Position numbers and translations under genes: made by a program. Under the pieces are notes generated by a model, which searched no databases, was not told the origin of the DNA, and was given only the letters and a program-made list of their open reading frames with translations. This document shows, one piece after another, positions 52,736-56,722 of a stretch of 64,000 nucleotides of DNA. The first letter of the stretch is position 1; the number at the start of each line of letters is the position of its first letter. Source of the stretch: an uncultured Clostridium sp. (GTDB lineage Bacteria > Bacillota > Clostridia > Clostridiales > Clostridiaceae); NCBI RefSeq assembly GCF_947072515.1, contig NZ_CAMTIG010000003.1, forward strand, positions 62,001-126,000, written 5' to 3'.

Positions 52736-53146
52736 TTAAATTTTATAGATTTCTTTACATATATTTTCTAGCTCAATCTTTTGTAAAAGCTCTTCAGGAT
52801 AATAAGCATTGCCCATTATTGAAAAAATTATATGGTCAGTCTTAAAGCCCTCTTTGTAAAGTTTTAGATGTTTAGTTATCCTTTTGATGGTATTTTTAGG
52901 AGCATTTAAAATTATCCCTAGATCTCGTGAAGAATAGAATTTTTTTGTAAGCAAATTATAGAGGCTTTTTTGAAGCTCTATTTTATACTCGATATCTTTT
53001 GTTAGATTTTGATGTGGTCCAAGCTTTCCTCTATGATGTTTCTGACATAAATACATATAATTTATTTCAATATCAAATCCACCTTCAGAGCGATGGACAA
53101 TATGATGAATGTCAGCAGGTTTATTACATATTTGGCAAAAATACAA
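52736..53146 (-). CDS. HNH-endonuclease-type zinc protein
   Basis: A 136-residue protein. Residues 1-45 form an HNH-like zinc module (FCQICNKPADIHHIVHRSEGG, then YLCQKHHRGKLG). Residues ~50-136 include a predicted helix-turn-helix-like stretch (SSRDLGIILNAPKNTIKRITKHL). It could be a nuclease or a DNA-binding protein; nothing shows which. GGGGG precedes the ATG. It lies downstream of ispF on the same strand and just before the thrS promoter. Confidence 0.7.
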   Translation of the reverse strand: MYFCQICNKPADIHHIVHRSEGGFDIEINYMYLCQKHHRGKLGPHQNLTKDIEYKIELQKSLYNLLTKKFYSSRDLGIILNAPKNTIKRITKHLKLYKEGFKTDHIIFSIMGNAYYPEELLQKIELENICKEIYKI

Positions 53147-53682: not shown

Positions 53683-53922
53683 AAAAATCACCTCTTTAAA
53701 AAATCTCCTATAATTTTATCATAAAAATTTCTTATAAAGAAGAATGGATAAGATACTTTTGTACGTTTATATTTAAAATCAACATAAATAATATTTCTTT
53801 TTTTCATAAAAAAACCTTTAGTAAAAGTAGTTTATAATACATTATATTAAAATGAGTAAAATAATGACAATATCTATAAGAGTTTATTAGATAAATTAGT
53901 TAAAAATTTATATGTTTTAAGG

Positions 53923-53928
53923 TATAAT
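53923..53928 (+). promoter_or_regulatory. -10 element of the SigI/RsgI-like fusion gene
   Basis: TATAAT at 53923-53928, with TTAAAA as a weak -35 at 17 bases. Transcription would start near 53935, only ~15-30 bases before the possible start codons, so nothing upstream is part of this gene. Confidence 0.6.
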
Positions 53929-53946: not shown

Positions 53947-54990
53947 TTGGGGTTGAAATTTGTGAGAAAATTTAATAAAAATAAGTATGTTTTTTCGAAA
54001 TCTGCAGGTTTTTTATCGATAGGAGAAGGGGGAGATAAAAAACGTAAAGAGCAGATAGCTTTATTTAGAAAAGAAGTTTATTTATATGAGGTATACATAA
54101 ATAAACTATCGTTAGTAAAAACGAGTTATGAAATAAGAAATGTACTGCTTAATATTTCATTTTTTATAATTGAAAATGGACATATTTTAAATAATCTTTA
54201 TAAGAAAAAAAGATTGAATGTAAGTTTATTAAGTAGTGAATGCATGATAAAAAGAGAGTTTATACACAAATATAAGGAGTATATAATATTTTATACAATT
54301 CTATTTGCTAATCCAAAATATAAATTAATTCAAAACTATTTTAGAATTATTCAATTAGAGGAAAATAATAAAGACACTAATTTAAAAATGTCTGAAAAAA
54401 ATGAAGAGATAAAAAAAGGAATAGCTATAAAGGTAAGTGATAGGACAGTTAGTATATTAACTAGTACAGGTGAAATAATAAGAAGTAAAAAAGAAGATGC
54501 AACTGTTGGAAATGAACATGAAATAAGAGAAAATAAATTTCTAAAGAAAAATAAAGTGAAACTTCTTATAGCAATTATGTTAATAACTATGGGGGTAGCT
54601 GGATTTATAAAAATATATAATGGTTCAACTAATTCAATAACAGTTGGAACAACATCACTTATAAAAATGGAGACAAATACATTCGATAAAGTTTTAAAAG
54701 TATCAACAAAAACTGAAAAAGGGAAAGAGATGCTTACAGATATAGCTATAAATGGAGAATCATTAGATATAGCTATACTAGAGATTATTAAATATGCTGA
54801 ACAAAATGGAATGATACCAGAGAAAAGTATTTTAATAACTATAAGTGGGGAACCTATAAATATTAAGAGGCTTAAAAAAACTGGAGAATATATATATGAG
54901 AAAAAAATAAGTGTAGATATAAATAATAGTGGAACAGAACATAAACTATACACAATAATAAAAAACCAAAAGGAAGAAGAAAATGAATAG
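53947..54990 (+). CDS. SigI C-terminal-like domain fused to RsgI-type anti-sigma factor
   Basis: 347 residues from the first possible start (TTG 53947; TTG 53953 and GTG 53962 are alternatives). Residues ~31-133 resemble the C-terminal domain of sigma-[11 protein letters not shown] at 83-92 corresponds to the SigI segment LYxKKxLPV, and [13 protein letters not shown] (102-114) lies where SigI has SRKTIERxRKYII. Residues ~156-192 match the RsgI N-terminal anti-sigma domain ([20 protein letters not shown]). One membrane span lies at ~204-223. The outer part (229-302) has the RsgI fold pattern ([12 protein letters not shown]) but lacks the Asn-Pro cleavage motif. Sigma region 2 is absent. The RsgI part is more certain than the SigI part. 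Confidence 0.75.
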
Positions 54991-55789
54991 AACTAGATAC
55001 AAATATATAAATAAAAAAGCAAGAGAAAAAGATACAAGTAAAAAAATTGATACAAAAATTATTGAACATGAAGATAGAAGTGAAGAGGTAAGGCTAAATA
55101 AATATATAGCAGAATCGGGATATTGCTCAAGAAGAGAAGCAGATAAACTTGTAGAGCAAGGAGAAGTTTCTGTTGATGGTAAAGTTGCAGTAATGGGACA
55201 GAAAATAATTAAAGGACAAATAGTTAAAGTAAGAGGTAGAGCAATAAATAAAGAGGAAGAACTTGTTTACATAGCTTTAAATAAACCTATAGGAATTACT
55301 TGTACAGCAGAAAGAAAAGTAAAAGGAAACATAGTTGATTTTGTAAATCATGAAAAGAGAATATATAACATAGGAAGATTAGATAAGGATTCACAAGGTC
55401 TTATTTTAATGACTAATGATGGTGATATAGTAAATAAAATTTTGAGAGCTGGAAATAATCATGAGAAAGAGTATGTAGTAACTGTAAATAAAAAAGTTAC
55501 ACCAGAATTTATAAAAAAAATGAGTAATGGGGTACAGATTTTAGATACAGTAACAAATAAATGCTTTGTAAAAAAAGAAGGGGAAAATGTATTTAGAATT
55601 ATACTTACTCAAGGATTGAATAGACAAATTAGAAGAATGTGTGAAGCGCTTGGTTATGAAGTTACACAACTTGAAAGAATAAGAATAATGAATATTAATT
55701 TAGGCAGTTTAAAAATAGGTGAGTGGAGAAACTTAACTTATAAAGAATTAAAAAGATTAAATGAATTAATAAAAACTTCTAGAAAATAA
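54983..55789 (+). CDS. rluF: 23S rRNA pseudouridine synthase, RluF type
   Basis: A 268-residue RsuA/RluB/RluF family enzyme. A basic N-terminal extension (1-35) is followed by an S4 domain (~36-83; [24 protein letters not shown]). The catalytic domain (~90-260) has the catalytic Asp in [20 protein letters not shown], plus [32 protein letters not shown] is specific to RluF, which modifies U2604 of 23S rRNA (E. coli numbering). Its ATG overlaps the fusion gene's stop by 8 bases, so translation is coupled. Ends with a terminator. Confidence 0.93.
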
Positions 55790-55796
55790 GAATAAT

Positions 55797-55842
55797 TAAC
55801 AGTTTATAGATAAATAATATCTGTAAACTGTTTTTTTATTGT
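55797..55842 (+). terminator. Terminator after rluF
   Basis: The stem ACAGTTTATAGATA / TATCTGTAAACTGT (one G-U) with a short loop is followed by T7. Confidence 0.85.
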
Positions 55843-55885: not shown

Positions 55886-56106
55886 GTGTCCACAGGTACC
55901 TGTGGATAACTTGTGGTAAATTTGTTGATATTTCTGTAGATAAAAAAGATTTTTTTGAAGAATTATAGAAAAACGTGTAATTTTTTTTAGAAAAGGAGTA
56001 GAGAATGTATGATAAAAAGGGAATCGAGACGAATTATAAGATGGCTGTGGATAATGTTGTTATTAACAATATCCACACAATGTCTGTGGATAACTAGTTA
56101 TGCACA
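55886..56106. promoter_or_regulatory. Cluster of DnaA boxes
   Basis: Three perfect DnaA boxes (TGTGGATAA on the plus strand) lie at 55901-55909, 56046-56054 and 56085-56093. One-mismatch boxes lie at 55935-55943 (TGTAGATAA), 56069-56077 (ATATCCACA) and 56098-56106 (TTATGCACA), and weaker ones at 55886 and 55912. An 18-base perfect palindrome, TCCACAGGTACCTGTGGA, lies at 55889-55906. The cluster covers the promoter region and the signal-peptide codons of the next gene. Confidence 0.75.
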
Positions 56107-56722
56107 GGTAGTTGAAGATATAATGCCACAAAAAAATTCTGTGAAAACAAAATGTTTAGATATAGATACAGATATTCCATATATAAACAGTCCATATGGA
56201 ATAGTTACGAATGAAATTATAAATCAAAGGGTGCATAATTTTATGGTGGAGATGAACAATACAGTAGATGAATATAAAGCCTCGGGATATATTTGCAATT
56301 ATCCATTAGAATTTAAAGCTAGTTATAATATCGAGAGAAATAATAATAATGTACTAAGTTTTTATATGGATTACTACCAATTTGCAGGGGGAGCACATGG
56401 TATGAGCTATAGAGAGCCATATACTATGAAGAAAAATGATGGAATAGTTCTAGGACTTAAAGATTTATTTAATAGTAATTATAATTATGCAGAAATCATT
56501 AATAAAAATATAAGAGAGCAAATAAATAGTGATAAGGATAAATATTTTGATGGTGGAGCAGATTTTAAAGGAGTAGATAATAAAACAGTATTTTATTTAA
56601 CAGATACTGAACTTGTAATTTTATATGGTTTATATGAGATAGCACCATATGCTTCAGGAATAATTGAATTTAAAATTAATTTAAATAATTTTAAAGATGG
56701 GCTAAAATATGATACTATTTAA
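56009..56722 (+). CDS. Secreted DUF4163/DUF3298 protein
   Basis: A 237-residue exported protein: signal peptide at 1-32 (basic MIKRESRRIIRW, hydrophobic core, SYAQ), then a DUF4163-like region (~50-115) and a DUF3298-like region (~120-230; GGAHGMSYREPYTMKKNDG near 127, FYLTDTELVILYGLYEIAPYASG near 195). The same module pair occurs in the RsiV anti-sigma ectodomain and the PdaC deacetylase N terminus, where it can bind lysozyme or wall material. No catalytic domain here. GGAG precedes the ATG. Its signal-peptide codons contain perfect DnaA boxes. Confidence 0.85.
   Translation: MIKRESRRIIRWLWIMLLLTISTQCLWITSYAQVVEDIMPQKNSVKTKCLDIDTDIPYINSPYGIVTNEIINQRVHNFMVEMNNTVDEYKASGYICNYPLEFKASYNIERNNNNVLSFYMDYYQFAGGAHGMSYREPYTMKKNDGIVLGLKDLFNSNYNYAEIINKNIREQINSDKDKYFDGGADFKGVDNKTVFYLTDTELVILYGLYEIAPYASGIIEFKINLNNFKDGLKYDTI

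Follow-up and report, generated by a model that had tools for sequence, protein, structure and literature searches.

The window analysed here is a stretch of 64,000 nucleotides from an uncultured Clostridium sp. (contig NZ_CAMTIG010000003.1), and it carries, at 53962-54990, a gene whose product combines both partners of a SigI/RsgI regulatory pair. Domain searches and structure comparison confirmed that one predicted chain contains the C-terminal domain of the sigma factor SigI (SigIC), the N-terminal domain of its anti-sigma factor RsgI, one membrane span and an RsgI-type outer domain. Judged by its sequence, the fusion unites a sigma factor and its anti-sigma factor in a single chain from which the sigma core has been lost, and an earlier on/off switch appears to have been put to use in another signalling job. 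We infer that the protein works neither as a sigma factor nor as an anti-sigma factor acting on SigI in trans. Our preferred reading, to which we assign a probability of roughly 0.45, is that it is a self-capped module, anchored in the membrane, that has been taken over for protein-protein signalling. The features of the gene are as follows, with residue numbers counted from TTG 53947.

53962..54990, + strand: SigIC-RsgI fusion gene, GTG start, 342 amino acids (a start at TTG 53947 would give 347)
53971..53997, + strand: N-terminal F-N-K-N-K-Y-V-F-S motif, residues 9-17, with a strand predicted at 14-16
54034..54339, + strand: SigIC, residues 30-131, with eroded DNA-contact sites (profile and fold matches)
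54412..54516, + strand: RsgI N-terminal domain, residues 156-190 (Pfam, family profile, structure comparison)
54535..54621, + strand: predicted membrane-spanning helix, residues 197-225 (model helix at 192-220 when numbered from the GTG; hydrophobic sequence)
54625..54930, + strand: extracytoplasmic RsgI_M / SEAL-type domain, residues 227-328 by structure and 239-344 by Pfam
54652..54657, + strand: Thr236-Ser237 at the position of the RsgI Asn-Pro self-cleavage site (alignment, model)

A first-pass annotation made from the letters alone had described this open reading frame as a SigI C-terminal domain, without sigma region 2, joined to an RsgI-type anti-sigma factor, and had proposed a search with hidden Markov models (HMMs). 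The frame is present, with its start corrected to GTG 53962, which relatives and the database record share. The HMM search bore out both halves. Residues 30-131 matched positions 117-218 of the 219 in the NCBIfam SigI profile TIGR02895 (E 1.6e-10); the score of 41 bits, against a full-length cut-off of 185, is what a partial domain is expected to give, and eight further SigI models matched the same part. Since the match begins only at 117, and no region-2 match was found beside the gene, sigma region 2 is absent from the fusion. For the remainder, Pfam identified RsgI_N (PF12791) at 156-190 (E 1.6e-5, 25.1 bits against a cut-off of 25) and RsgI_M at 239-344 (E 3.6e-8), with one predicted span. 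A profile of the fusion's own protein family (37 sequences) matched the structures of SigI6 (8i24_F, 9.4e-17), SigI1C (6ivu_B, 1.2e-10) and RsgI1N (6ivs_A, 7.4e-5) and, weakly, the RsgI periplasmic domain (8hep_B, 0.023); the window protein as a single sequence reached only E 0.02, to SigI6. In the structural model the SigI C-terminal domain fold is kept, and RsgI_N superimposes on 6ivs with a root-mean-square deviation of 1.0 over 41 columns (Foldseek E 0.17). The N-terminal motif, whose F16 is invariant in an alignment of 75 fusions, may be derived from the SigI interdomain linker.

The residues with which SigI contacts the -35 element have been named from the SigI6 open complex, and SigI6 was inactive in vivo when one of them, H171, was replaced by Tyr (PMC10575876). 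We examined the 13 SigI6 contact positions in an alignment of 24 SigI proteins with the 75 fusions. In SigI these positions are more conserved than the rest (0.68 vs 0.59), whereas in the fusions they are less conserved (0.34 vs 0.55, the gap at Arg172 scored as zero). With the Arg172 site left out, conservation dropped by 0.340 at the 12 remaining contact sites vs 0.043 at 90 others (permutation p 1e-5; none of the 100,000 shuffles gave as high a value). The minor-groove residue His171 is present in 17/24 SigI vs 0/75 fusions, and a one-residue gap replaces Arg172 in every fusion. The SigI majority residue is shared at 4 of the 13 contact sites vs 45 of 91 other sites. The change in recognition-helix residues that had been noted from the window's sequence is supported, and by alignment the family's DNA-contact residues are eroded while the fold and the remaining sequence are kept.

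The second loss concerns self-cleavage. A clear Asn-Pro stands at the expected place in 20 of 24 distinct ordinary RsgI-type proteins but is absent from all 75 fusions, in agreement with the earlier observation that the site reads Thr-Ser in the window. The pair found there is Thr-Ser in 54 fusions, Asn-Ala in four, Ser-Ser in three, and one of 14 other pairs, each seen once.

The first-pass annotation had also suggested a self-capped sensor, and structure prediction of the cytosolic half agrees with this indirectly. The cytosolic part alone (195 amino acids, 23 sequences) was predicted with a mean predicted local distance difference test (pLDDT) score of 89.6 and a predicted template modelling (pTM) score of 0.88. 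By our own rough estimate, a docked RsgI domain should give a pTM of about 0.84 and a loose one 0.67-0.72, so the model points to SigIC docked on its own RsgI domain. The grounds for such a contact within the chain, and hence for self-capping, are good but indirect; the docking presumably resembles that of the known SigI1C-RsgI1N complex. Under the preferred reading, the outer domain would sense the state of the envelope and, without self-cleavage, would transmit the signal by altering or opening the SigIC-RsgI contact; the SigIC surface thus exposed would then bind a cytosolic partner by protein-protein contact. In true SigI, one SigIC surface binds both RsgI and the RNA polymerase beta flap, the site for the flap-tip helix overlapping that for RsgI (PMC10575876). 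By analogy with this shared surface, the beta flap-tip helix is our leading guess for the partner. The more specific proposal that follows this guess, namely an ancient clostridial membrane-tethered, self-capped RNA polymerase regulator in which SigIC serves as a regulated flap-binding module with no sigma core and no promoter reading, we consider quite unlikely as it stands.

The alternative that survives best, though we judge it unlikely, is regulated release: the outer domain would still be cleaved, the membrane protease RseP would then liberate the cytosolic part, and the SigIC thus set free would act on RNA polymerase. Cleavage might occur at Thr-Ser by an acyl shift, the chemistry of SEA-type cleavage, or through a separate site-1 protease. 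Thr-Ser lies in a turn between two predicted strands, where RsgI has Asn-Pro, and it recurs in most fusions even though the residue after it varies. The window's genome has two genes for M50 proteases, and known RsgI signalling proceeds through self-cleavage, RseP and ClpXP (PMC12203970). However, Thr-Ser is not kept in the deeper lineages of the fusion, a pattern that looks like relaxed constraint after the loss of Asn-Pro, and ClpXP might degrade a freed chain from its C-terminal end. We had considered Thr-Ser as proof of a new cleavage chemistry when it appeared nearly invariant in 34 rows, but dropped this candidate given its frequency in the wider set.

It is improbable that the protein is instead a membrane-tethered DNA-binding regulator, using SigIC as a helix-turn-helix domain with no sigma role. 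The SigIC fold is indeed kept, and in the window's protein the recognition helices retain basic residues, the major-groove sites keeping a net charge of +4; this charge weighs against a loss of promoter reading. On the other side stand the loss of the minor-groove His and the low conservation of the contact sites relative to the rest of the domain, which is the opposite of the pattern in SigI.

Lower still we place a role as a decoy or modulator of a resident SigI/RsgI pair, which the first-pass annotation had offered as one option. Counting as full-length SigI any profile match running from position 15 or less to 213 or more, we found one besides the fusion in 30 of 68 Clostridium genomes, and in one relative (G165) the fusion is directly preceded by an intact sigI-rsgI pair. 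Yet 36 of the 38 genus genomes without full-length SigI still match the fusion, the window's genome among them and one (G074) by a fragment; because 10 of these 38 assemblies have a completeness below 90%, SigI may have been missed in some. Since most genomes lacking full-length SigI match the fusion nonetheless, decoy activity is unlikely as its general role, and in the model the RsgI-binding site appears to be occupied in cis. In the window there is no cognate sigI upstream of the fusion, and its genome holds no full SigI match; the C-terminal part of the SigI model (from 117) is matched there by the fusion gene only, and RsgI_M has no match besides the fusion. Five other weak SigI-profile matches in this genome were taken for other sigma factors, and a separate region-2 partner may be among them.

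We determined how widely the fusion occurs in several searches. In a survey of 40 genomes (the window's own, 24 from the genus and 15 from the order), the window's genome and all 24 genus genomes matched the fusion, and the matches outside the family were separate sigI-like and rsgI-like pieces. A 34-row profile matched 66 of the 68 Clostridium genomes, own included; the two misses were genomes 59% and 78% complete, and the match in G074 was a 48-residue fragment at a contig end. In a search of 194 genomes of the family, 138 of them outside the genus, the fusion was present in one open frame in at least 38 of these 138, from at least 15 genera (in G156 the scored match ends at profile position 230 of 339), while other genomes of the family have ordinary adjacent sigI and rsgI genes. 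Named carriers, from a search in which 26 loci were confirmed among 66 candidate stretches, are C. beijerinckii, C. puniceum, C. uliginosum, C. neonatale, C. gasigenes, C. tertium and C. sartagoforme. In the order outside the family, the matches listed were split sigI/rsgI pieces or interrupted frames; one match, in G223, covers profile positions 53-294 with two stops.

In a tree of 99 distinct SigIC domains, one branch (support 100/98) divided the 75 fusions from the 24 SigI proteins. The tree is built on 110 columns with midpoint rooting, and many of its inner forks are unresolved; one origin is its simplest reading, and the fusions form a clade only if the root lies among SigI. The ratio of nonsynonymous to synonymous substitution rates (dN/dS) was calculated for 32 non-overlapping fusion pairs. 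In the nine close pairs (dS under 0.7), it was 0.13-0.25. We treated the other 23 (dS 0.76-1.15, apparent dN/dS 0.24-0.96) as saturated and did not rely on them; they include the window's own row (dS 0.91), for which there is no close DNA pair. From the distribution, the tree branch and the dN/dS of close pairs, we conclude that a single origin early in the family is probable and that purifying selection acts on the fusion. No full-length SigI-RsgI intermediate was found among 55 proteins with lengths of 329-384, for which 7997 candidates were scored.

Several loci show other arrangements of the same parts. In five (L039, L043-L046), the stop codon of sigI adjoins the first start codon of rsgI in frame, so that a single stop codon divides the genes. 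In G165 (L123, 3980-6688), the intact sigI-rsgI pair, whose rsgI keeps Asn-Pro, and the intact fusion follow one another on the same strand, which may reflect a tandem duplication. Two fusion relatives in one genus, g21 (L131, 2878-3921, and L132, 2956-3996), have no RsgI_N detected by HMM, and three fusions of 366-409 amino acids (L128, L129, L130) have a SigIC-RsgI_N linker about 35-46 residues longer than the window's. In G192 (L137, 4294-4878), an ordinary sigI-rsgI pair is followed by a small RsgI-like gene of 194 amino acids with RsgI_N and RsgI_M and no Asn-Pro; G204 and G183 have frames of 194-195 codons that match the RsgI part.

We give almost no credence to the idea that the fusion is decaying, arose by chance or is an artefact of sequencing or assembly: a single stop codon between sigI and rsgI in some relatives means that fusions can arise easily, and the window's lineage sits on a long branch, but the same architecture occurs genus-wide and in 15 further genera on one tree branch, with low dN/dS in close pairs and partly shared neighbours. 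For the family we therefore rejected decay or artefact, the former of which had been raised in the first-pass annotation; the situation it named as refuting its fusion, an intact sigI directly upstream with a frameshift at this position, was not seen in relatives.

Among known systems, the fusion shares the C-terminal domain fold and sequence with the SigI factors of Bacilli and Clostridia but differs from them in having no region 2, in its lost minor-groove and poorly conserved major-groove residues, and in being joined to RsgI. With RsgI proteins that carry a SEAL-type outer domain (B. subtilis RsgI; C. thermocellum RsgI1-9) it shares the order RsgI_N, one span, RsgI_M; unlike them, it has its own SigIC in front, no Asn-Pro and no partner sigI in the window's genome. 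The family profile matches both partners of the SigI1C-RsgI1N complex (PDB 6IVU), one with each half, but there the partners are two chains rather than one. The nearest described case that we found is C. thermocellum RsgI9, an orphan RsgI with no paired sigI and, like the fusion, an enlarged cytosolic part; in RsgI9, however, about 100 extra residues lie between the RsgI_N-like domain and the span, and the outer domain self-cleaves (PMC12203970). Our searches of the open-access literature, most subscription papers falling outside this coverage, turned up no description of a SigIC-RsgI fusion; passages of PMC7690194, PMC6056542, PMC4711584 and PMC6362236 treat ordinary SigI or RsgI. Where a label exists, it is "anti-sigma factor domain-containing protein," which leaves the sigma half unnamed. 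The fusion family provides a natural test case for two questions: does SigIC serve any purpose besides promoter reading, and can SEAL-type domains signal without self-cleavage? As a caution, fusion genes should not count as evidence of a SigI system.

The gene probably forms a two-gene unit, and the features around it are as follows.

53900..53928, + strand: sigma-70-type promoter-like site TTAAAA-17-TATAAT, 10/12 matches, 33 bases before GTG 53962
54983..55789, + strand: S4-domain RNA pseudouridine synthase, overlapping the fusion by 8 bases and probably co-transcribed with it
55798..55832, + strand: terminator-like stem-loop closing the two-gene unit (1 found; shuffle mean 0.2)

The TATAAT that had been taken as a sign that the gene begins here does belong to a site with 10/12 matches, but such sites are not commoner than chance (14 found vs a shuffle mean of 17.2). 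Upstream of the fusion in the window is ispF, on the opposite strand. Downstream, a same-strand pseudouridine synthase follows 45 of 75 distinct fusions (33 within 60 bases, 6 at 60-700 and 6 farther); it was not found for the other 30, where the flank examined was often only about 1.5 kb. The fusion of C. beijerinckii is followed by a convergent gene, which we take to be a polysaccharide deacetylase. As a clue to function, gene neighbourhood is a weak hint. Farther out, a PdaC and DUF3298 domain protein (window 56009-56722, + strand) is found near the fusion in many relatives, and a small HNH endonuclease-like protein (window 52736-53146, - strand) has relatives on the same side of ispF in many loci.
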